From NCBI GenBank assembly GCA_036873755.1, contig JAVTVY010016051.1, positions 1 through 64,000 of the forward strand: 64,000 nt of DNA, given 5' to 3'. Made by a program: the position numbers and the translations under genes. Position 1 is the first letter of the stretch; every line of letters starts with the position of its first letter. Source of the stretch: Hanleya hanleyi. Its lineage: Eukaryota > Mollusca > Polyplacophora > Lepidopleurida > Hanleyidae. The notes beneath the pieces are model-generated. The model ran no database searches. It was not told the origin of the DNA and worked only from the letters and a program-made list of their open reading frames with translations. Below, one piece after another: positions 40,333-58,690 of this stretch.

Positions 40333-40893
40333 TTAAGAAGTGTCCAGCCGGTTTTTTGATGGAGGGTTAAGGCGGAGCCTTGACTGGTACATTTGGTGTA
40401 CCAATCTTGCTATTTTTGAAGCATTGTCTCTGTGGGGATTTAATATAGATTTAACTTTTATAATTTCCGGATGATGTGAGAGTCGGTTACCGTGGATAAT
40501 TTGGTTTATATAATGTCTATGTTTGTTATGTCGAGGACAGTATAGCAAGAAGTGTACTTCATCTTCTACTACATTTTGGGTACAGTAGCGACAGATCCGG
40601 TCACATCTTGGGGTGTTTTTATACCTACCGGTCTCTATTTCGAGTTTGTGACAGCTGATTCGTAGTTTTGTTATTGTTCGTCTATGATCCGGGTTTTGTA
40701 TATTTTCTAGGTAATCCTGCAATTTATATTCTTCATATATGGTTGAGAGGAGAGTCAGTTTACCAGATTGGGTGTGCTCTTGAACTTTTTTGAGGAAATA
40801 GTTTTTGTAGTCTTGCTTCAGCTGCAATTTCATTTGGTGGTAGTATCTATTCTTCTGAAACTTAGTCATGTTTTTTATATCACCAGTTGCCAA
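40333..40893 (-). pseudogene. LINE A C-terminal domain with Cys/His knuckle
   Basis: In the same frame as the preceding segment, so the TAA is the only break between them. Contains CDRICRYCTQN and DEVHFLLYCP, a CxxxCxxC...HxxxxC arrangement typical of the C-terminus of several LINE groups. Confidence 0.8.
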
Positions 40894-40974
40894 GTTCGCG
40901 GCATTCTTGAACTTGGCAACTGTTGTTTTCCAGTTCTGGTTACCAGAGGCATAAGCATCTTTAAGAAGCGTATT

Positions 40975-41820
40975 TTATGTGTTTTGGAGTCGTTCGTCGT
41001 ATTTCAGAGCAGCCATGAGGATGTCGAAGTGAAGGGGAAAAAGTCCAAGTTCTGCTCGGCATGCAAGGGAATGTGTCCGACGAGAAGATCCGAGGGCCAT
41101 TTTACAAAATTTTAGTTGAATTTGTTCTGAATGTGTTTTATTTAGTTTTTCAATGCTAATCCAGAAGTTTTTTGTGTTCTTGAGCAGTTTTTCCTCTAAT
41201 CCCCATATCTCACAGTTATACAATAGAATAGGTTTAATTAAGGACTGGAAGAGTTTAACTTGGATGTTTATTGGGAATTCACTATCATTTGATACTTTCC
41301 GTATTTTATACAATGCCTTCTGAGCTCTTTGCTTTAAATCAAGTGCAGTGTCTGTGAACTGGCCTTTGTCGTTCAAAGTAGTCCCAAGGTATCGGTAGGA
41401 TTGAACTATTTGAAGTGTTGTATCACCTATCTGGAAAATAGGAGATAAGTTTTTCTTCCGTTTCCGCTGTTGTAGAATCATTACTTTAATTTTATCAGTA
41501 TTCATGTTGAGATGCCAGGTGCTACAGTATAGTTTTAGTTGATTAAGGATATTTTGCAAACCACCCTCAGATTTCGACATTATTACCAAATCATCTGCAT
41601 ACATTAGGTGTGATATAGCCTCTTTATGTAATAAGGGCGAGTCATTTTCCGTGTGGTTGAACTGGAGGTCATGAACGAATACGTTAAAGAGGGTAGGACT
41701 GAGGTTGTCTCCCTGGCGGACTCCCACCAAGCTTTCTAATTTAGGCGAGCGAGTTGTTTTGCTTAACTTGAAGTACTGTTTTTGTATGCATGTCTTTAAT
41801 GAGTTTGTAGAATTTTCCAC
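40975..41820 (-). pseudogene. LINE A reverse-transcriptase catalytic part
   Basis: Encodes VGVRQGDNLSPTLFNVFVHD and HLMYADDLVIMSKS with the YADD catalytic motif, then the thumb (RYLGTTL, LLYNCEIWG). It stops at a single in-frame TAA at 40975-40977; reading continues in the same frame beyond it. The fingers are separated from it by a deletion near 41850. Confidence 0.88.
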
Positions 41821-41904
41821 GAACTCCTATTCGAAGGAGCTTCAAGAACAGACCGTTGTGCCAAACCGAGTCGAATAATTGTTTCTTTTTCTTAACATAT
41901 TTAT

Positions 41905-43164
41905 CTATAAGAGTAGAAATAATGTAAAGATTGTCTGTTGTTCTTCTGGAAGGATGTTACTTTCTTCCAGAAAGTTTGAAAGTCTGTTATTTAGGAGTTT
42001 AGTGAAAAGTTTGCTGAGACTGTTCAGGATAGTGATTCCCCTATAATTTGATACTTCTCCTTTGGCGCCTTTTTTATGAACTGGAACTATGTAGCCCTGG
42101 GCCCACATCGATGGAAAAATTCCAGCCTGCAGGATACAATTAAACAAGTTGGTGATAGGAGAAAGAAGAGACAGTTGCCCGTATTTTAACATTTCATTTG
42201 TTAGCCTATCAGGACCGGCTGATTTGTTATTTTTTAGAGTTTTAATAGCCGCTTTTATTTCACTTAAGGATATTGGCTCAGAAAGATTGTTATTTCCATG
42301 ATCAGACTGTTCTAGGGTATTTATTTCCTCTTTCACTTCACCATCGGTACAGTTTGACTGATTTTGGTGGTTAATGGTGTCAAAATGTTTGTATAATTCA
42401 GAAAGAGGTGGGCCAGATGCGGGATTCAATGTATCGATATTCTCGAGTGATTGTACGAGGGTCCAAAATTCTTTACTGTTGGTGCTGCTCAGATTTCTTA
42501 AATTATCAATGATAGTTTGTTTGTAGATCCTCTGTTTTCTTTTTACGAGTTTCTGGTAGTCTTTTTTAGTTTTATTGTACGACTGTCGGAGTTGTGAATT
42601 CCAGGGATTACTGGAGAGTTGTTTGCCTAAACTGATCACTAGTTTACGAGTATCTCTGCAGTCTTGGTCAAAATACGGTTTAGACTTTCGTCGTTTTTTA
42701 TGGCGTTTGGGGTTAGAGTTCAGTAGTGCGAAGGAGCATGGGTTGAGTGACGAGATTGATTTGAGGAATATATCAGTGAGTTGGCTATTAGCTTCGTCAA
42801 TATTCAGTTGAGTGGCTGGGATATCCTTTGTCATAAAGTCGGAAATAGAGGTTATTGCATCTTGTGATAGTAGTGAAAGTTGATAGTGATATTGGTTTTC
42901 AGAAGTGAGCTTAGGTAAGCGCGTGGGCACTGGAAAGATTTCTATAGGATTAGCATTTTGTTGTCTGTCAACACAGTAGTCAAGGTTACATGTAATTTGA
43001 CAATGCCTTGATAAATAAATTAGGGGTTTGATTTGCATGCACCAAATAGAGGGGAGTAGTGCTTCGCTACAGATGAACAAGTCGATAGCACTACTTCCTC
43101 TGCAGTCATGGTATGTATAATTTCCAAGGGTGTCACCAGGAGTTCTGCCATTGAGGATACGCAT
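41905..43164 (-). pseudogene. LINE A endonuclease end and reverse-transcriptase start
   Basis: About 419 codons open. Contains the endonuclease end (DCRGSSAIDLFICSE), a basic linker, then reverse-transcriptase blocks KNNKSAGPDRLTNEM and PVHKKGAKGEVSNYRGITIL. It ends early after ILPEEQQ because a small deletion shifts the frame. Confidence 0.85.
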
Positions 43165-43204
43165 CTGCGAAGAAACGCATAAGGAAAGAAGTTGAATATT
43201 GTCA

Positions 43205-43810
43205 ATGTCTCAGGACCGGACCATGCAAATCTAAATTATTTCTGAACAACTGGGAATCAGAGACGTAGTCCTCAGGAAGAACTATATATTCACTTGAATC
43301 ATTTGCTATGAAATCTTGCATCCCTTTTAATCGGGAGTTGAAGTCTCCCATGAGAAGGACATCTCCTTCGGAACTGAATTTGGTTAAATTATCTTCTAAC
43401 TGAGCAAACTGATCATCAAAATAGGACGAGTCACCCGGGGGAATATAACAGGTAGAGATAAATAGATCTCTCCTACAACCCAGAAACTTGGAGTCTAACT
43501 TAATCCAGATGGAGTCCGGTGTTTTCAGTGATATGTAGAGAGCTTCGTGAAGACACTTTCTATACAGGAGGATTATCCCACCAGCTTTCCTACCGGCTGC
43601 ACACTTCCTACCCCTCGCTGGTACAAAAATATATCTAAAGTCCTGGAGATAAATTTCTTACACTCCTCTTCATCTATAATCCATGTCTCTACGAAGCCAA
43701 TTATATCATATAGTCCTTTAGATGAGCAGAAAATAAGTCATCTGCCATCTTGTTTTTCAGTCCGTCAATATTCCAACAGCTTAGATTCAACATTGGTATT
43801 TGTATGCTAA
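43205..43810 (-). pseudogene. LINE A endonuclease domain, frameshifted
   Basis: Starts LNLSCWNIDGLKNKM and later reads DVLLMGDFNSRLKG (about 43333-43362), the GDFN motif of APE-type endonucleases, but in different frames. Several indels separate the pieces, so no functional nuclease is encoded. Confidence 0.75.
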
Positions 43811-46129: not shown

Positions 46130-46969
46130 TATAAGTTCCTTCCGTTTTTTCTAGTAGATTTGTGCATTCTATTAAAAAATGAAATTCATCTCCCACTTGA
46201 CCGGTGTTACACAATTTACATACTCTCATATCCCTAGCAATATTTGTATATCATACTGTCTCAATTGGCAAACAGTGGTTTACAGTACGAAATTTACAAA
46301 GAGTTATGTAATCTCGTGCAGATAAATAGTTAAAATAACCCTCAAAACAAAAATCAGATTTAAATAATCGGTATAAGTAACATTTTGGACTTTTAAATAA
46401 TGTACTTTTCCAGTCTTGTCTATACTGATCTTGTAGTTTCAACTTTACCGCACTTTGTATCCATTTCGGATCGAAATTATTATATGTATACCATATGTTT
46501 GACATGCCACAACTGTCTAAAATATTGTTAACATGAAGTATCCATGGTGACGAGTACCCACTCCATTTAAACTGTACATAACTGCTCAATTTAGATTCTT
46601 TATCACTCCAAAGTTTACACCAGTAATTAACCATTCTGTATTTGACTGTTATATTAAGGGGGTATTTACCAAGCTCTCCGTAAACCATACAAGAGTTACG
46701 GGGTGGAGGTGTTTAGACCTAAAATATGCTTACAATAACATAAATAAACCTTCTCAATTAGATCAATCTTACTATAACCCCAGATTTCACAATTATACAA
46801 CAATATTGGCGTAACCAGTAAATCAAATAATTCTAACTGTATATTGATAGGTAGCTTATGAGTCCTACATTTACTAATTAGACTAAACATTGCCTTCCGA
46901 CCTTGTTCACATACTGTTTTAATACTGAGTGTGAAGTTGCCATTGTACGTAAAGGTATTTCCCAGATAC
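46130..46969 (-). pseudogene. LINE B reverse-transcriptase 3' part and C-terminus
   Basis: Begins KYLGNTFTYNGNFTLS, directly continuing the sequence that ends the inverted piece, then LLVTPILLYNCEIWGYSK and, after a frame change, the long C-terminal domain with the Cys/His knuckle. Confidence 0.8.
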
Positions 46970-47556
46970 TTAAGTGCTTGATAGAACTATTTCTCAATCG
47001 CAAGAAAAAACTGTATTGTGTCTTTGTAGATTGCCAAAAAGCATTCGATTCTGTATGGAGAGTCGGACTATGGAAGAAACTATTAGATTTAGGCATAGAT
47101 GGTAAAATACTACGCTTGTTTAAAAATATGTATAATGATATCAAATCGTGTGTTAGAGCAAATGGACGGATGCCTGAATTTATTGGTAGTAGACAGGGAG
47201 TGCGCCAAGGAGAGAATTTGTCTCCTTTGTTATTTGCCCTTTTTGTCAATGATTTAGAAGAATTTTTAACTGACGAAGGTAATCAATTTATTGAAATAGA
47301 AAACGATGATATGGAGGTACTGTTATGTTGCTTATGTATGCCGATGACACGGTGATTTTCTCTGAAAGTATAGAGGGGCTACAAAAGGCTCTCGATGATT
47401 TTGCGATGTATTGTGATTATTGGAAGCTAGTAGTAAATGTGCAGAAAACTAGTGTTATTATATTTCAGAAGAGAAGGGTAAAACTCAATAGGGTCGAGTT
47501 TAAATTTAATGGGGAAACACTGAACTTAGTTGATTATTTTAAGGAGGAATGTATGA
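46970..47556 (+). pseudogene. LINE B reverse-transcriptase core, inverted segment
   Basis: Plus strand reads KKKLYCVFVDCQKAFDSVW, GVRQGENLSPLLFALFVND, then after a one-base shift MYADDTVIFSESIEGL with the YADD motif, to ETLNLVDYF. Flanked on both sides by minus-strand parts of the same element. Confidence 0.85.
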
Positions 47557-49374: not shown

Positions 49375-51063
49375 TTGATTGTGAATCGTCGAACTTTATC
49401 TATACACCATACAAACATATTGTGACTGGTGACCTTGATTGTGGTGAGTGATAAGGATCCAAAAGCTCTGATGAAGGGACCTAAATATAGAGAGCCAAGA
49501 AGAATAAATCTGAAGGCCGACCAGAAGATAGTCCTGTCTGCATTGGAACAGTACGTTATTGATTGGTCTAAGCGAGAAAAAGTTGAACCTACAGTACTCG
49601 CTGATTGGCTGGACCTCACCAAGAGCAAGGTCGTTGAAACAATCCGCCATATTGACAGAAGTACTCTTCCCCAAGCAAAACAAGTACTGAGAAACCTCAA
49701 TTCGCAAGAAGTTCTAGCAAATCTCAAGAGTAAATTCGTCATAGTCCCAGCAGACAAAGCTCCGAATAATATAATATTCATATGTAAATATTACTATTAC
49801 CAGGTGCTGGTTAAAGAATTGAGTGTAGACATATTTTCATCAAATACGTCTACTTACTCCCAAACTGCATTTACTCTGGAAGATTTATTTAACAATCACA
49901 AAAAGTTTCTCAGGGAAAGAGATATTTGTCTTCCAACCAATCATAACGACATACCAAAAATATACTGGACTCCCAAAATGCATAAATCACCATACACAGC
50001 TAGATTCATAGCTGGTTCTAGAAGCTGCACCACCAAGCTTCTTTCAACCCTATTGACGAGGGCCCTTCAGGAGGTAAAAGCATTTTGGGAAAGGTATTGC
50101 GCCACTATTTCTAAGAACTCTGGCGTTGAATGTATGTGGATATTGAAAAACTCGAAATGTCTTACGGAAGAGCTTGATGCTAAAGGTCACATACCGTACA
50201 GACATGTATCCACATGGGATTTCTCGACTCTCTATACCACAATCTCTCATCAGGACCTTATTGACCGTCTAAGTTCATTAATAGTATCTGTGTTCAAGAA
50301 AACTGATCGTAGATATATTAATGTCGGAAGCCATAAAGCATTCTTTAGCTCGACTACATACAAGAGATATCATTCATGGGATGTTTCTTTGTTTATAGAG
50401 TTGCTTGAATTTCTCATTAAAAATATCTATGTGAAATTTGGCAACACAATATATCAGCAGCATATAGGTATTCCAATGGGTACTAATTGTGCACCCCTGT
50501 TGGCTGACCTGTATCTGTTCTCTTATGAATATGACTATATGCAGGCGCTTTCAAAAACCGATCCATTCAAAGCCCGTTCCTTCTCATTCACCAAACGCTA
50601 TATAGACGATCTTCTCGCTGTGGATAATCGCTATATAAATGACGCAGTGAAGGATATATATCCACCTTCACTGGATTTGAAGGAAACTACAGATAGCCCT
50701 ACAGGCACATCATATTTAGATCTCTATCTCTATAAAAATGAAGCGGGCATTCTCTCTCGTCGACTTTATGACAAAAGAGATGATTACAATTTCGACATCG
50801 TAAACTATCCCTTTCTGGATAGTAATATTCCAGTGGGACCTGCATATGGCGTATACATATCTCGCTTAGTAGCATTTGCTAGATCCTGTGTTAAATGTGA
50901 TGATTTTAATCAACGTCACAAAACATTGTTGCAGAAACTTATAAAACAGGGCTATTCCACCAAGCGCCTCCACTCAAAGTTTCTCAAATTTGGCGATACA
51001 TATCGCATGCTGATAGCAAAATACGAACGTAGCGTGCAAGATCTATGGCGCTACGTTTCGTAA
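49375..51063 (+). pseudogene. Penelope-like reverse transcriptase
   Basis: Reads DCESSNFIYTPYKHIVTGDL, then a one-base frameshift near 49440, then about 540 codons open to TAA. Motifs in order: KGPKYREP, FVIVPADKAPNNI, IYWTPKMHKSPYTARFI (typical PLE PKMHK), STWDFSTLYTT, IGIPMGTNCAPLLADLYL and RYIDDLLAV with the catalytic YxDD. No GIY-YIG nuclease follows in any frame before the next repeat, so the copy either belongs to a group without C-terminal nuclease or is cut. Apart from the frameshift the catalytic domain is whole, so insertion was fairly recent. Confidence 0.8.
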
Positions 51064-51202: not shown

Positions 51203-51460
51203 ATTATGGATTAAGAATACTGATCAGCGATACGGTTTTGATATTTTGGAACATCATGATGTCTTGCCGGCATCATTGAAAACTGTTGACCGCTTCTCTC
51301 TTGCAGGAAACAAGCCTATGTTTATGTATACTTTTTGTCTTTTTGAATTTGGTGCTAATACTGTTATATGGAAATGGAATAGGTCTTTGGATTATGGACG
51401 CGGATATTCTCTAATGGACGACGGCTGGATTATGAATGACGGACTAGACGCTTGTAATCC
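51203..51460 (+). repeat. ~255-bp dispersed repeat, copy 3
   Basis: Lies 140 bp after the Penelope-like ORF and ends inside the 3' end of zinc-finger gene A, supplying that ORF's last ~10 codons and its stop. It may be the 3' end of the Penelope-like element or an independent short element. Confidence 0.8.
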
Positions 51461-51927
51461 ACTGCATCTTCCGAAAAATGTTCGATGTCGTCAGGCGTAT
51501 CACTCGAAACCGTAACGCTGGTGTCCGGCTGGATATCCAGGCCCTCCTGGACTGTGGGTATAGGCGGGCTCTTCGTCATCGCATCACCAGTGGCGTTCGT
51601 CTCCCCGGGTTCATCTTCTCTGGCTCTGACCTTCCGCGGCTCCTCTTTAGTAGAATGTTGTCGCCCGAATCGTGGAGAAGGGGCATGAATCAAACGTTGG
51701 TGTTGTCTTAACCGACTGGGTCGTTTGAAGAGTCGACCACAATCGTTACATTGTACCGTCACACCCTCGTGGAGTGCCTTCTCATGGCGCAGTAAATTAT
51801 CCTCCCGATTGAATGATCGTGCACAGATTATACAAGTATACCGTGCATCGTTGTGGGCGGAGGCCTCGTGACGTCGTAAACTTTCTATTCGAGCAAACTG
51901 CTTCTGGCAAGTTGTGCAAGTGAACAT
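51430..51927 (-). CDS. zinc-finger gene A: three C2H2 fingers, 3' truncated by a repeat
   Basis: 165 codons, ATG at 51927. Three fingers with C-X2-C-X12-H-X4-H spacing (FTCTTCQKQF, YTCIICARSF, VQCNDCGRLF), then an acidic/Ser/Thr linker. The last ~10 residues and the stop come from the dispersed repeat that ends at 51460, so the original 3' half, present in gene B, is lost. Intronless. The promoter block is nearly the same as for gene B. Fingers predict DNA binding; the partner is unknown. Probably a truncated paralogue. Confidence 0.7.
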   Translation of the reverse strand: MFTCTTCQKQFARIESLRRHEASAHNDARYTCIICARSFNREDNLLRHEKALHEGVTVQCNDCGRLFKRPSRLRQHQRLIHAPSPRFGRQHSTKEEPRKVRAREDEPGETNATGDAMTKSPPIPTVQEGLDIQPDTSVTVSSDTPDDIEHFSEDAVDYKRLVRHS

Positions 51928-52017
51928 CTTGGTAGTTGACAGAGTATCGGATGAAACGACCAGGCCGCTTCCCTTTTATAGTGCGCTAGCTGATGATCTA
52001 TTTTTAGCACACTCAGT
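51928..52017 (-). promoter_or_regulatory. gene A promoter: TATA box and MEF2-like site
   Basis: On the minus strand TATAAAA (51980-51974) lies 47 bp before the ATG, and CTAAAAATAG (52007-51998), a perfect MEF2-type palindrome, 18 bp further up. The ~90-bp block differs from the gene B block at only a handful of positions. Confidence 0.7.
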
Positions 52018-52077
52018 TCAACTACCCCAAGTCGAGGACCAGACATATAGAGTATGTATTGCATGCTATGGTATTCA

Positions 52078-52998
52078 TCAGTGCAAGGGTGGCACATTCA
52101 GCCGATGGGGGTGGTCGGTCAGCTTGGTAACGAAAAACGTGACATTGGTCACCCTCTCTACGACCCATTGTGTGTTGGGGAGTTGTTGTTGGGCCCATTC
52201 CAAGGGATCCACGGTGTCCAGTTTCTCCAGCATTGCCTGTAGCGACGCTCGGTTAATGATGGTAAACGGTTGGTCAAATACCCGGATGTTACTGCTCGGG
52301 TAAAAATATCGGGCTGCTTGGTCTGTGTCCTTATGCTGCAGCACATAACCAAACGCCAGATTCAACTTGAAGGCCGTAGTTTGATCGTTGAAGATGGCTT
52401 TCACGTAGCTGCGTAGGCGGGTGAGGTTGGTCAGTCGGAAATTGTAGATATCTTGAATGGGGCGATGACGGTAGAAACAGTGCCGGATCATGTGCCAATG
52501 GCGCCGATAGATGTCACTCACTGGATGGTGTTCGTGTAACAGATCGCTAGGAACATGTATGGGTTCGTCCACGAAGTGTACTTTGCTCGCCTCGTCGTGC
52601 AAAATCTGGCCCAATGTCTTGTCGTCGGAATTTGACTGTTGAATTAGGGCGACATCATCATCTTCAACCCTCGTGCGATGGGTGGGAGTTCCCGCTTTCT
52701 CGATATTGGTGCCTACGGACTCTTCTACCTGCAGACGTGACTGCAGAACAGGGTGTCGTGTGCGTTGGTGTCGCAGCAACTGACTGGTCAGTTTGAAAAT
52801 CCGACCACATTCTTCGCATGGACGCTTGGGTACTTCATGGCGTGCACGTGTGTGGCGCTGTAAATGATCTGGGCGCTGAAACGACAGTGTACATATCGTA
52901 CAGCTATGACGGGCGGTTCCTTCGTGCTTGTTAGCCTCATGGCGGCGCAAGTCGTGCAGACGAGTGAATGCTTTCGAGCACGTAGTACAAGTGAACAT
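52078..52998 (-). CDS. zinc-finger gene B: three C2H2 fingers plus ~165-residue domain
   Basis: 306 codons, ATG to TGA, no intron. Residues 1-80 hold three C2H2 fingers (FTCTTCSKAF, HSCTICTLSF, RPCEECGRIF), each C-X2-C-X12-H-X4-H. Residues ~80-140 are an acidic linker. Residues ~140-306 form a domain with HWHMIRHCFYRHRPIQDIYN, KLNLAFGYVL, RYFYPSSNIRVFDQPFTIIN and WVVERVTNVTFFVTKL. From memory, similar text precedes type-B DNA polymerase in long cnidarian and molluscan proteins of Maverick-like elements; here it stops before any polymerase. A TATA box sits 47 bp before the ATG. Neighbours: gene A in tandem, a copy of the C-terminal domain inverted at 53.97 kb. May be a domesticated or degraded mobile-element gene. 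Confidence 0.75.
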   Translation of the reverse strand: MFTCTTCSKAFTRLHDLRRHEANKHEGTARHSCTICTLSFQRPDHLQRHTRARHEVPKRPCEECGRIFKLTSQLLRHQRTRHPVLQSRLQVEESVGTNIEKAGTPTHRTRVEDDDVALIQQSNSDDKTLGQILHDEASKVHFVDEPIHVPSDLLHEHHPVSDIYRRHWHMIRHCFYRHRPIQDIYNFRLTNLTRLRSYVKAIFNDQTTAFKLNLAFGYVLQHKDTDQAARYFYPSSNIRVFDQPFTIINRASLQAMLEKLDTVDPLEWAQQQLPNTQWVVERVTNVTFFVTKLTDHPHRLNVPPLH

Positions 52999-53151
52999 CT
53001 TGGTGGTTGACAGAGTGTCTGATGAAACGACCAGGCCGCTTCCCTTTTATAGCACGCTAGCTGGTGATCTATTTTTAGCACACTCAAACGAACCCCAACA
53101 AACAGGTCAGTACCGTCTCCTTTCTTTCAATTCACATCGAAAGTGACGTCA
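52999..53151 (-). promoter_or_regulatory. gene B promoter: TATA box, MEF2-like site, CRE
   Basis: TATAAAA (53051-53045) is 47 bp before the ATG, CTAAAAATAG at 53078-53069, and a perfect cAMP-response-element palindrome TGACGTCA at 53144-53151. The same CRE word fills the array at 54.9-56.1 kb. Confidence 0.7.
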
Positions 53152-53254
53152 TACCCCAACATGTCTAAACATGATCCGACAACATGAAAAGGATGCAGGT
53201 CAAGTGCACTCAATGACCTGGTGTACGAACGACCTTATATGACCACTCACTCAC

Positions 53255-53550
53255 TCATGTGTGTGTGTGTCTGTTTACCTGTGTGTCTGCGTCTGTGTGT
53301 ATGCGTCTGTGTGTGTGTATGCGTCTGTTTGCCTGTGTGCATGTGTGCTTGCGTGTACGTGTATGTGTGTGTGTATGTTCGTGTGTGTCTGTGTGCATGT
53401 GTGCGTACGTGTGTGTGTGTGTGTGTGTACGCGTGTGTGTGTGTATACGTCTGTATGCGTGTGTTTATGCGTGTGTGTGTGTGTGTGTATGCGTCTGATG
53501 CGTGTGCGTGTGTGTGTGCGTCTGTGTGTCTGTGTGCGTGTGTGCATGAG
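53255..53550. repeat. (GT)n-rich compound microsatellite
   Basis: About 300 bp of TGTGTGTG mixed with TGCGTCTG and TGCATGTG units. All long open frames on both strands here are low-complexity artefacts. Confidence 0.95.
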
Positions 53551-53566
53551 CCGAGTTCTAAGAGCC

Positions 53567-54763
53567 CCGGAGAGAGAACAACAACAACAACAAGGATGAC
53601 ACATGAGAGAGGACCAATACATATGGACACATGTTCATTCCTATATTTAAAGACTCTACCACCACCACCACCAACTCCATCAATACCACCACCGCACACC
53701 ACCAACACCACCAACACCACCACCAACGCCACCACCAACGCCACCAACGCCACCACTAACGCCACCAACGTCACCACCGGGCGTCAACGCCCGGTGGTGG
53801 TGGTGGTGGTGGTGGTAGCCCCCGTGTGGCAGAGCTCCGAGAGCTCCACACCCGGTGGTGGTGGTGGGAACTCCCGTGTGGCAGAGCTCTTGGATCGGAG
53901 CTCTTGGAGCTCAACGCCTGTGGAGCTCAGATCTCGGAAGTGACATTTGCATACGACCTCTGTGAGGTCCCAATCGGCGCCATTGGACCATGATACGGCA
54001 CTGTTTCCACCGTCATCGCCCTATTCAAGATATCTACAATTTTCGACTGACCGACCTCGCCCGTCTACGCAGCTACGTGGAAGCCATCTTCAATGACCAA
54101 GCAACGTCCTTCAAATTAAATCTGGCGTTTGGTTGTGTGCTGCAGCATAAGGAGACAGATCAAGTCCGATACTTTTACCCGAGCAGTAACATCCGGGTAT
54201 TTGATCAACCGTTTACCATCATTAACCGGGCGTCGCTAGAGACGATGCTGGAGAACCTGGCCACCGTGGATCCCTTGCAATGGGCCCAACGACAACGCCC
54301 CAACACCAAATGGATAGTGGAGAGGGTCACCAATGTTACGTTCTTCGTGGTTAAACTGACCACCACCGCCATCGGATGAAAGTATTCACCCATGCACTGA
54401 TAGATTCTCAGAATGCGCAAACAACTATCTGAGGATATGTTGCCTCAACGGTATCCTGGCCTGCCCGACGGTGATTAGAATAAACGGTTCAGAGCGAACA
54501 TGGCCGAAGATGGAACTTTCTGAAATGGAGACTTCTGATTGAACAAGAATACATCTAACGGACAGGAACGAATATGAAACATGCAAATGGTGGCCTCTGA
54601 TTGGGAAGAATCTTCTTGAATTGTAAATATACCCAACGCGGCTCCCCCAGCGTGGGTATGATGTAACATTGGGGAGAATAAACTATATGAAAAAAACTTC
54701 TTCTTCTTCTTGTTCTCTCATGTGTCATCCTTGTTGTTGTTGCTGTTGTTGTTCTCTCTCCGG
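53567..54763. repeat. ~45-bp inverted repeat enclosing domain copy C
   Basis: CCGGAGAGAGAACAACAACA...GATGACACATGAGAGA (53567-53610) is the reverse of 54714-54763. The enclosed 1.2 kb has (CCACCAACA)n, a CACCGGGCG/CGCCCGGTG palindrome near 53775-53800, GAGCTC-rich sequence and domain copy C. Could be the ends of a mobile unit or a folded duplication. Confidence 0.65.
53972..54379 (+). pseudogene. domain copy C: 5'-truncated, inverted copy of gene B 3' half
   Basis: Begins RRHWTMIRHCFHRHRPIQDI and continues closely similar to gene B residues ~165-300 through VERVTNVTFFVVKL. The fingers are absent, and a small indel changes the last ~10 codons to TTTAIG before TGA. An AATAAA follows at 54480. 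On the opposite strand to A and B, so the family has been copied in both orientations. Confidence 0.75.
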
Positions 54764-54884: not shown

Positions 54885-56410
54885 GGGCGTTGAAGCATTA
54901 AGAATGGCTTTGGTGGGCGTTGCTACAAGATGACACCTCACACGACGCATTCGCACCGCGGATGGTCCATCTCTACACCAAATAACATCCTTCACTGCTA
55001 AAAAATGCCCACTTTCGCTACTACTCGTACTGATGACGTCACCAATGACGTCACAGATGCTGTGGATATCCCTCAACTCGGAATGTACACCCCGAGAGCT
55101 ACAACATGACACCTCCCAGGACCCATTCGGACCAAGGATGGTTCCTCTCTACTCCGAATACCTTCCTTCACTGCCCCAAAATGTCCACTTTCGCTACTAC
55201 TCCTACTGATGACGTCAACAATGACGTCACAGATGCTTCGGACATGCCTCAACTCGGAATGTACACCCGAGAACTACAAGATGACACCTTCCAGGACGCA
55301 TTCGGACTAAGGATAGTCCCTCTCTACACCAAACTCACCCCCACGCACCCACAAAATGTCCCCTTTCGCTACTACTCGTACTGATGACGTCACCGATGAC
55401 GTCACAGATGACGCGGACATCCCTTAAATCGGAATGTACACCCCGAGAACTAAAAGATGACACCTTCCAGGACGCATTCGAACCGTGAATAGCCCATCTC
55501 GACCCCACGTACCCCCAAAATGTCCACTTTCGCTACTACTCGTACCGATGACGTCATCAATGACGTCACAGATGACGCGAACATCCCTCAAATCGGAATG
55601 TACACCCCGAGAGCAACAAAATGACACCTCACACGACACATTCGGACCAAGGATGGTCCCTCTCTACCCCAAACACCTTCCTTTCACTGCCCCAAAATGG
55701 CCACTTTACTTACTACAACCAACTGCGCATGCGCAGATTAACGCGACTTGCATTCAAAAACACACCATTCTGACTCTACCCCACACAAGCTTCACTTTGA
55801 CACCTCACACGACCCATTCGAACCGTGAATAGCCCATCTCTACCCCAAACACACCCCTACATAGCACCCAAAATGCCCCCTTTCGCTACTACTCGTACTG
55901 ATGACGTCACTGATGACGTCACAGATGACGCGGACATCCCTTAAATCGGAATGTACACCCCGAGAACTACAAGATGACACCTTCCAGGACGCATTCGAAC
56001 CGTGAATAGCCCATCTCGACCCCAAATACCTTCATGTACTGCCCGAAAATGGCCACTTTCGCTACTACTCGTACCGATGACGTCACCGATGACGTCACAG
56101 ATGACGCGGACATCCCTCAAATCGGAATGTACACCCCGAGAACTACAAGATGACACCTCACACGACGCATTCGGACCAAGGATGGTCCCTCTCTACCCCA
56201 AATATCTTCATGTACTGCCCCAAAATGGCCACTTTACTTACTACAACCAACTGCGCATGCGCAGATTGACGCGACTTGCATTCAAAAACACACCATTCTG
56301 ACTCTACCCCACACAAGCTTCACTTTGACACCTCACACGACCCATTCGAACCGTGAATAGCCCATCTCTATCCCAAACACACCCCTACATAGCACCCAAA
56401 ATGCCTGTTT
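54885..56410. repeat. tandem array, ~175-bp unit, with paired TGACGTCA palindromes
   Basis: Units read ACAAGATGACACCTCACACG, TCGGACCAAGGATGGTCCCT, CACTTTCGCTACTACTCGTA, then two TGACGTCA words 12 bp apart. Pairs lie at 55034/55046, 55210/55222, 55385/55397, 55549/55561, 55902/55914 and 56078/56090: twelve perfect CREs. Two units replace them with CTGCGCATGCGCAG (55733-55746, 56251-56264), and the ~150-bp blocks after these are near-identical. Frames on both strands stay open through several units but are period artefacts unless shown otherwise. Confidence 0.85.
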
Positions 56411-57720
56411 TCTATACTACGGGCCAGGCTGCGCATGTGCAGACTATTGAACACGGACGAACCATTAGTGTAGTCAAGTGCTCCTCCACGAGAGCTTCAA
56501 AATAAGACCTCACTCGACCCCATTGGACCATTAGGGACTCACCTAGACTCCAACATGTCCACCCCGTATGGGCCTATACACCCATAGCCATGCAGTATAG
56601 GCCTATGGGCCTACCCAGGCCTCGGTGACTTTTTTCAAAAATTTCACCGATTCGCTCCGCAACACTTCCTATCGTGTTCTACATGACGAGACGAGTAAAA
56701 CGAGACCCCACAACCCTACCGCAAATGTATAGAAGTGGGTTTCCCAGCAGGATAAACATTGAACCTATACCCCAGTATGGGACTATATGGGGCTATATCG
56801 TACTTTTTCAAAAATTTCACCGATTCGAGCCGGGACACTTCCTATCATGTTCTAAATGACGAGACTAAGAAAACGAGACCCCACAACCTATACCGCAAAT
56901 GTCGAGAAGTAGGTTTCCCAGGATGGTCCTATACCCCCATACCCCATATAGGCATTTTCCCGTAATTTAGGATAAAGTCCGTGTTCCGTATTTTTTCAGG
57001 AAAATTTTTACATACACCCACCCTGGAACTAGGGGGAGATAACTCTATTGATAGACAAGCCCCGTTAAGCCCGGCGACCTATATACCCCTCATACCCCAT
57101 ATAGGCATTTTCCCAGGTTTTTCGATAAAGTCCGTGTTCCGTATTTTTTTTTTTCAGGAAAAATTTTACATGCACCCACCCAGCCATCAAATACCCCTTC
57201 ACCTAGGCTTCACTTTGATACCTCATATGACCCCATCGGACCATTATTGGCTCCCCTAGCTCCAAAACGTCTATTTCCATACCCTTTTCCCACAATTCCC
57301 TGTCTGCGCAGGCGCAGAATGGTGACAACGCCCGAGCCGCTAGTCCAGTCAAATGCCCCTTCACAAATGCTTAACTTTGATACCTCATATGACCCCATTG
57401 GACCATTAGGGGCTCCCCTACATCCCAACACGTCTATTTCCATACCCTTCGGCCACCGCGCATGCGCAGAATGCCGATACTTCAACCCCACATCCAGCCC
57501 ATCAGATGCCCCTTCACGAATGCTTCACTTTGATACCTCACTCGATCCCATTGGACCATTAGTAGCTCCCCTACATCCCAAAACGGCTATTTCCATACCC
57601 TTGGGCCACCGCGCATGCGCAGAATGCCGCTCTGTCAACCCCACACCCAGCCCATTAGATGCCCCTTCACCTAAGCTTCACTTTGATACCTCACTCGACC
57701 CAATCGGACCATTTTATCTA
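56411..57720. repeat. related tandem array with GCGCATGCGC palindromes
   Basis: Units carry CTTCACTTTGATACCTCA, GACCCCATTGGACCATTAGG, CGTCTATTTCCATACCC and CGCGCATGCGCAGAATGCCG (about 57457 and 57610; variants at 56429 and 57304). TTTGACACCTCACACGACCC links it to the previous array. The first part (56560-57170) has CCCATATAGGCATTTTCCC duplicated. Confidence 0.8.
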
Positions 57721-57954
57721 GGGACTACTTTTTCTCCGCGGAAGGTTTTTCCCGCGACCGAATCACCGCCAGACATGACCGCATCACCGCGGATGAATAC
57801 ATCTTTGACCTGGGTCACGTGATATGCAAATTTGGAACTCTCCTGTGCTGGAAGTAGCTTTTGGTCCTTCTGCCGGAACTATACTCCACTTGACCTCTGT
57901 GACCTTGAAATGAGGTCGAAATGAGGTCAAGTTGCGCTCTGCCGTCCTTTCCCT
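57721..57954. other. right border of the array region
   Basis: Contains a CACGTG E-box (57816-57821) and ATGAGGTC direct repeats at 57912-57930. No gene. Confidence 0.4.
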
Positions 57955-58690
57955 ACTACTCTCCCATATCGATTATATTTGTAAGAAAGTTTCCAGGAGT
58001 ATAGGACTACTCAGTCATATTAAGAAATCCGTTAACAAAAAAATACTATACATTTGATATTATTCTCTTATATTTCCATATCTATCGTATTGTAATACTC
58101 TTTGGGGAAACACATACACTAGTGCAGTACAAAACGTGCAATACGACTTATAACATTTTCAAATAAAGTAGACCACACTGAACCCCTATTCCGGAAAACC
58201 CAGATTTTACAGCTGAATAAACTAAATACTTACCTTTTACTGTTGATAGTCCACAAATTTTTCTACTGCTCAACTCAACTGCGCAGAGATGCCTTTAGAC
58301 ATTATTTAAAAACAAAACAATCAACAGTACATTACTTTAATTTAATATAGCTAGGCCGTTTTATCGGACAAACCTATCCTTCTACACCACTAAAATAGCT
58401 GGACCCCGTGAGTGGAATAAATTACCCTCCTCAATTAAATCCACATCATCTACTTCACTATTCAAATCAAGCCTTAAATCATATCTGCTTGAAGACTGAC
58501 CTGTCTCCACACACAAAAATGCGCCTGGTATAATAATTCTATGTTGTATATCAAGACTACAAATTTTCGTATATTACATCTATTAGGGATAGAACAAGCC
58601 CCATAGGGCTTTATTCCGGCCTCTTACAGTTTGTGAGCATTACTAGAAATGAACATTTATGTGGTGAATAAAAATCAAATAAAATCAAAT
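57955..58690 (+). mobile_element. LINE C: 3' fragment of a non-LTR retrotransposon
   Basis: Broken frames read SHIDYICKKVSRSIGLLSHI, YLSYCNTLWGNTY and IGQTYPSTPLK, the last part of a jockey/CR1-like reverse transcriptase. Ends with an AAATC-type tail (58664-58690). The 5' part is missing, as usual for truncated LINE insertions. Confidence 0.75.

Follow-up and report, generated by a model that had tools for sequence, protein, structure and literature searches.

The mollusc Hanleya hanleyi carries, on contig JAVTVY010016051.1 of assembly GCA_036873755.1, a pair of neighboring zinc-finger genes that belong to a palindromic mobile element with the ends of a Maverick/Polinton transposon. We analyzed positions 1–64,000 of the contig, forward strand, and refer to all 64,000 nt as “the window.” The two genes, A (51430–51927, 165 aa) and B (306 aa; Table 1), lie in tandem on the minus strand. 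Each is an uninterrupted open frame, which is all that we mean by “intronless”; by a simple composition estimate, the chance of a 306-codon open frame is ~1e-6. B comprises three C2H2 fingers (Pfam PF00096, three stretches) followed by a domain with its own stop, to which we refer as the terminal-protein (TP) domain. The domain recurs in inverted orientation at C (53990–54379, plus strand), with 84% identity over 125 residues and 87% over 433 bases. The tandem arrangement without introns, the composition of B, and the inverted repeat at C had all been recognized in a preliminary description made from the sequence alone, and all three hold.

Neither gene is confined to this locus. Searching the 2.48-Gb genome, we scored at least 129 places for B, of which 120 are free of stops, and at least 150 for A, of which 145 lack stops in the matched part. 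These counts are lower bounds and, being ranked by protein similarity, are biased toward intact frames. The preliminary description had named two findings that would speak against it, namely a lack of homologues outside the locus and a domain drawn from an ordinary host gene with introns; neither is what we see.

A and B are preceded by nearly the same promoter, as had been noted: 82 of the 88 bases before the ATG are identical. In both genes, TATAAAA starts 53 bases before the ATG, leaving 46 bases between box and start codon; the equal spacing reported earlier is thus correct, while its value of 47 bp is not. The similarity stops abruptly, with only 11 matches in the next 40 bases upstream, and the finger codons of A and B are saturated at synonymous positions, so that the promoter cassettes resemble each other much more closely than the DNA around them. 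Among 932 candidates in the genome, we scored 40 perfect copies of the 88-base cassette; 17 of these fall at scored B places, 15 of which have no stop. An IMG/VR scan with the promoter pattern found no relative. Both genes are also open, in the gene frame, between TATAAAA and the ATG (51928–51975 and 52999–53046), where all three differences fall at third positions and leave the residue unchanged, possibly by chance given n = 3.

A palindromic element with Maverick ends

Many B copies occur in inverted pairs, with B-to-B distances of 0.5–5.6 kb. To establish the plan of the element, we compared the window with eight other copies (C7517, C8894, C10497, C13435, C16214, C32158, C39811, and C47739). 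The better-preserved copies are palindromes of about 11–15 kb in which an outer end is followed by repeats, gene A, gene B, and a centre, and then by the mirror image of all of these. Each arm consists of ~3 kb of mostly tandem repeats together with genes A and B; C8894 has extra fragments. In seven of the eight copies, gene A is a single frame of 290–307 residues. Its residues 1–157 correspond to A of the window, and its remainder corresponds to C (94–97% in five copies, 78–83% in C10497 and C47739). The window copy has lost its left terminus and its left outer arm, at ~51457. From the opposite arm, it lacks B and the fingers of A, a loss that falls between 53969 and 53973. This is why A looks finger-only and C looks domain-only. 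Rather than being separate gene copies, A and C therefore represent two parts of one gene, fingers and domain, respectively, and the window copy is rearranged. Instead of the three copies proposed in the preliminary description, the window holds one and a half gene pairs.

Two other views of C were rejected: that it is a truncated copy of B, since it is the second half of gene A in other copies, and that it sits in a separate 1.2-kb element with ends at 53567–53610 and 54714–54763, since these repeats turn out to be internal to the larger palindrome, in its centre and arm. A neutral simulation that treated C as a gene gave it, taken alone, a 5–15% chance of staying open, which is weak evidence. 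In L029/L030 (C47739) and L023 (C10497), gene A has a shortened or diverged TP half (290 aa and 83%, or 78%, identity to C), suggesting subfamilies. Adjoining the C10497 copy, L024 (C10497:36435–40965) contains more diverged arrays and an A/B-like frame (63–68% identity), and is perhaps an older relative.

Frames of ≥150 aa inside the elements are limited to A, B, their pieces, and repeat or centre frames; in this size range, we recognized no rve integrase, capsid, ATPase, or protease gene. The centre frames are mostly repeat translation. A non-repetitive stretch of ~50 residues recurs in those of several copies (L017 9093–9758, plus; L025 8537–9088, minus; L027 7326–8159, minus); none of these three frames matches a Pfam family at E≤0.01. 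Rfam at gathering scores and a tRNA search likewise gave no match. The ~176-bp array of the window contains twelve perfect palindromes, TGACGTCA, at 55034–56097, in pairs 12 bases apart; another lies at 53144, upstream of B.

Table 1. Parts of the element in the window, by position
Feature	Position	Strand	Remarks
Finger and linker half of element gene A (residues 1–157)	51457..51927	-	Residues 1–157 of full gene A in seven of eight copies match at 94–99%
Open frame of A past 51457 to 51430			DNA not common to other copies; element copy broken at ~51457
Promoter cassette of gene A	51928..52015	-	TATAAAA box 51974–51980
Gene B, complete: three C2H2 fingers, linker, TP domain, own stop	52078..52998	-	
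Three C2H2 fingers of B (residues 1–82)	52753..52998	-	PF00096
TP domain of B (residues 159–297)	52108..52524	-	Candidate DNA-linking residue Thr276
Promoter cassette of gene B	52999..53086	-	TATAAAA box 53045–53051
Centre of palindromic element	53087..53969	.	GT-rich and CCA/GGT repeats, no recognized gene
“C”, TP-domain half of other arm's gene A (residues 179–307 in better-preserved copies)	53973..54379	+	Loss of that arm's B and A fingers joins C to centre
Subterminal tandem array, ~176-bp unit	54923..56235	+	Homologous DNA upstream of one polymerase family of same genome
Outer repeats of arm, ~153- to 173-bp units	56631..57822	+	
Right terminus of element, ...TACTACT	57954..57960	+	Next six host bases CTCCCA; end sequence identical in C13435

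The ends of the element read AGTAGT...ACTACT. In a comparison of seven copies (the eight without C8894), both ends are present in C7517, C13435, C32158, C16214, and C47739, and the left end alone in C10497; those of C39811 are not resolvable. The window copy retains the right end. Perfect 6-bp target duplications flank four of the seven copies (C7517, C13435, C32158, and C47739), with the sequences AAGCAT, CAGTAT, GATGTT, and GGCCCT; C16214 has both ends and no target duplication. All seven have multi-kilobase inverted arms, i.e., terminal inverted repeats. For vertebrate Mavericks, the available text of PMC8097293 gives (AGT)2 // (ACT)2 as the commonest end motif, together with 6-bp target duplications. 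The element thus has the duplication, end motif, and terminal inverted repeats by which a Maverick/Polinton integrating unit is recognized. Because the duplications flank the whole palindrome, the palindrome moved as one unit, and because the 28 B copies that we compared are 96.4–100% alike at the DNA level, its spread is recent.

These features bear on two alternatives. First, the palindromes might be head-to-head pairs of a shorter element, or frozen replication intermediates, with an autonomous element that has its polymerase between such arms. The close pairing of the arms would fit, as would the finding, described below, that one polymerase family has arm repeat DNA upstream in terminal-repeat orientation. 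However, the position of the target duplications in four of seven copies, the B-to-B distances of 0.5–5.6 kb, and the lack of any polymerase found in the eight copies read make this improbable. Second, A and B might be a host gene family domesticated after capture from a Maverick, in keeping with their stand-alone open frames and own promoters; a captured element gene was one of the two possibilities raised in the preliminary description. Against this, the genes are dispersed over at least 129 places as part of a palindromic element that has Maverick ends and is flanked by 6-bp target duplications. The 28 copies that we compared out of the 129 are 96–100% alike, and the genes do not occupy a fixed single locus outside mobile DNA, as a host gene would. 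We consider domestication largely refuted and very improbable. The other possibility raised, a miniature element derived from an element gene, proved right in kind, given the palindromic structure, Maverick ends, and duplications.

The terminal-protein domain of genes A and B

No family in Pfam or PHROGs covers the domain of B, and sub-threshold Pfam rows for C (e.g., WW_TCERG1, E 0.011) were weak and not taken up. In a sequence search of solved structures with B, only the fingers and adjoining residues were matched (among the best 60 of 179 rows), and IMG/VR scans found no relative of B. A protein search with B returned three unnamed relatives along with P0004–P0006, which are zinc-finger proteins or unrelated and were excluded from all domain counts. 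By contrast, a length-padded query cut from one of the relatives matched 1050 proteins at E≤1e-3. Among 120 of these matches listed, many are ~1200 residues long with Pfam DNA_pol_B_2, some with C2H2 fingers in front. P0127 and P0128 are 47% identical to B over the domain, with P0001 about as close at 44%, and both have fingers, domain, and an OTU-like segment in a single chain. This arrangement, together with the DNA_pol_B_2 relatives, identifies the domain of B as the N-terminal domain of protein-primed type-B DNA polymerases.

In the polymerase relatives of B, the chain runs on into the OTU-like segment; B stops ahead of it. After the domain, the relatives have NLCxFRC (119 of 125) and H[FY]SYI (112 of 125), followed in most by exonuclease and polymerase motifs. 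We take the segment to be OTU from its motif and the published architecture rather than from a fold comparison. The preliminary description had likened the domain to the region ahead of the type-B polymerase in Maverick-like elements and had placed the stop of B at the domain border; the first point is now supported by the DNA_pol_B_2 relatives and by polymerase loci in the same genome, and the second stands.

The predicted fold of the domain, a four-stranded sheet with two helices, resembles the little finger of Y-family polymerases and matches the published TP domain. Among 50 structure matches listed, a single one was not a Y-family polymerase (3htn_B, rank 1, rmsd 7.2). A conserved P-N-[S/T] site matches the site at which terminal proteins are linked to DNA, with Ser/Thr in 124 of 125 relatives and one protein lacking the motif. 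In B, the candidate linking residue is Thr276, in a Q-L-P-N-T-Q-W loop leading from helix 2 to the last strand, and C also has Thr. By predicted fold and P-N-[S/T] site, the domain therefore matches the published TP, or protein primer, domain; the DNA linkage is putative.

A different role is conceivable for a DNA-binding protein of this kind, i.e., that finger-TP proteins compete with autonomous Mavericks or regulate their transcription instead of priming their own element. Among viral structures, B is matched most closely by a C2H2-named protein of Drosophila-associated adintovirus 2, and, in the available text of PMC11071296, zinc-finger regulator genes (“Ziftr”) are reported for some adintoviruses. 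However, Thr is retained at the candidate linking position in both gene types of the window, A and B, and a regulator acting through DNA binding alone would have no need of it. We regard interference or regulation as unlikely.

Polymerases elsewhere in the genome and constraint on A and B

A tblastn search (E≤1e-3) with the post-TP portions of seven polymerases gave no match in the stretches read of eight copies, and the window has no polymerase match outside A, B, and C. Elsewhere in the genome, 67 places encode the N-terminal half of a polymerase, 63 of them without stops in the matched part. The 12 of these that we analyzed (L053–L064) all continue into the polymerase part. Seven (L057 and L059–L064) form one family, 95.5–97.9% alike, whose fused TP domain is 65–66% identical to that of B and 66–69% to that of C. 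Upstream of the polymerase frame in this family lies element-arm DNA, up to 84% identical over 259 bases, in terminal-repeat orientation. This repeat DNA is present in seven of seven loci of the family and in none of the five other polymerase loci. As judged from sequence, the shared TP domain and repeat DNA support a link between the element and this one polymerase family, and the five-locus control agrees. In L057, the only locus translated, the frame of the polymerase opens close to the TP domain and includes no fingers, although an upstream exon is possible. Separate frames of ~140 codons with finger-like motifs lie upstream of the polymerase in L053 (3754–4164, minus) and L055 (123–548, plus), perhaps as an exon or a separate finger gene.

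Between the TP domains of A-type and B-type genes, the ratio of nonsynonymous to synonymous substitution rates (Ka/Ks) is 0.25 (bootstrap 0.13–0.46, 131 codons), suggesting that both paralogues were constrained after their split. Constraint in the lineage is thus supported; among present copies, it is weakly supported. We counted changes in 28 B copies drawn from the 129 protein-ranked places, a sample that favours intact proteins. Unique changes comprise 41 nonsynonymous and 31 synonymous, compared to a neutral expectation of 2.1–3.4 to 1 (p ~0.02 at kappa 4); shared changes comprise 20 and 12 (p 0.34). The “all” class was not used because it includes one frameshifted copy. Of 23 perfect-promoter copies outside the scored B places, we read ten. 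Two are open, and the remaining eight are interrupted by a premature stop or a frameshift, which in two cases falls only close to the end. Judged by their first residues, two of the ten belong to the A type.

Non-autonomous elements commonly spread as passive deletion derivatives. The strongest rival to an active role for A and B is that the element is what remains of a Maverick, its ends still intact and its movement due to autonomous copies, in which both genes are roleless relics. The weak constraint among copies and the breakage of eight of the ten promoter-picked copies outside the protein-ranked list favour this possibility and weigh against the reading given below. On the other hand, several features argue against relics: (i) two paralogues are kept per arm, each with its near-identical compact promoter cassette; (ii) A and B have fingers, which are missing from the start of the frame in the nearest polymerase family, subject to the possible upstream exon; (iii) both paralogues stop at a domain border; (iv) Ka/Ks between their TP domains is low; (v) 120 of the 129 scored B places lack a stop, albeit in a ranking biased by protein similarity. 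We therefore consider the relic explanation rather doubtful, if less so than regulation.

Protein priming by a non-autonomous element, and known systems

From the anatomy of the element, its copy number, Maverick ends, and TP identity, and with no polymerase detected in the copies read, we consider it probable that the window holds one damaged copy of a non-autonomous Maverick/Polinton that has spread recently to many places, provides its own finger-tagged primer, and borrows its polymerase and integrase. In the better-preserved copies, each arm encodes two zinc-finger TP genes, A and B, and no other recognized gene. The fingers may bring the TP domain to the element's own ends or terminal repeats, where the Ser/Thr of the TP (Thr276 in B) would be linked to the first nucleotide by a polymerase provided in trans by autonomous relatives. 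That polymerase would then copy the element, yielding protein-capped linear DNA, which the integrase of the autonomous relatives would insert. The end of B coincides with the presumed site at which the vOTU protease cuts the parent protein; B may therefore encode directly what otherwise arises by cleavage. More tentatively, and with rather less confidence, we propose a protein-primed satellite transposon that discarded the polymerase, integrase, and capsid genes, kept and duplicated the primer, and uses fingers that recognize its own ends to out-compete autonomous Mavericks for their polymerase.

Outside the element, the window contains traces of other mobile DNA. A 545-codon open frame (49426–51063, plus) has a weak reverse-transcriptase match (RVT_1, E 1e-4, below cut-off) and is bracketed by a 41-base direct repeat (49178 and 51065); we presume it to be like Penelope-type elements. 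Further RVT_1 frames lie at 40333–43657 (minus), adjoining a weak endonuclease-like frame, and at 46882–47355 (plus), and presumably belong to a LINE-like element in pieces.

Several known systems share parts of this design. As far as the available text of PMC8097293 and PMC11071308 describes them, Mavericks/Polintons have the same (AGT)2...(ACT)2 ends, 6-bp duplications, inverted termini, and TP domain of the polymerase. The element differs in that no polymerase was found in eight copies, frames of ≥150 aa include no other recognized gene, the arms are very long, with tandem arrays, and there are up to four finger-TP genes per element. In a Polinton/adintovirus of the coral Stylophora pistillata, the TP is likewise encoded by its own gene (PMC11071308, available text); there, the same element has a polymerase with an active vOTU, whereas here none was found and the TP is finger-fused and duplicated. 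Adenovirus and PRD1-type terminal proteins, as portrayed in that text, resemble B in predicted fold and in having a Ser/Thr/Tyr, with Pro or Gly close by, in the loop that leads to the last strand. B lacks their C-terminal helical extension and has fingers in front, and its linkage is putative. The finger-TP-OTU-polymerase proteins (P0069, P0127, and relatives; L053–L064) share the order of fingers (some), TP domain, and HPIG domain end (most), but continue into the OTU-like segment, exonuclease, and polymerase where A and B stop. Lastly, the long foldback-type element Galileo has very long inverted repeats with internal repeats; according to the accessible part of PMC3573991, it is classed with P-element transposases.

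Split primers (in the coral Polinton) and zinc-finger genes (in some adintoviruses) are already known from the available text of these sources. A literature search joining polinton, terminal protein, and zinc finger found no paper, and, judged by titles and the starts of abstracts, we found no non-autonomous, polymerase-less Maverick with finger-tagged primer genes in its arms; both searches covered few subscription papers.

If our interpretation is correct, protein-primed replication is open to exploitation by a non-autonomous element that brings along the primer, not the ends alone. The element would be a natural multi-copy case of a terminal protein separated from its polymerase, bearing on the origin of the separate primer gene of adenoviruses. 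It would also make the role of the fingers ahead of some type-B polymerases, possibly end recognition, testable, and would explain a locus otherwise open to annotation as a host zinc-finger gene family.

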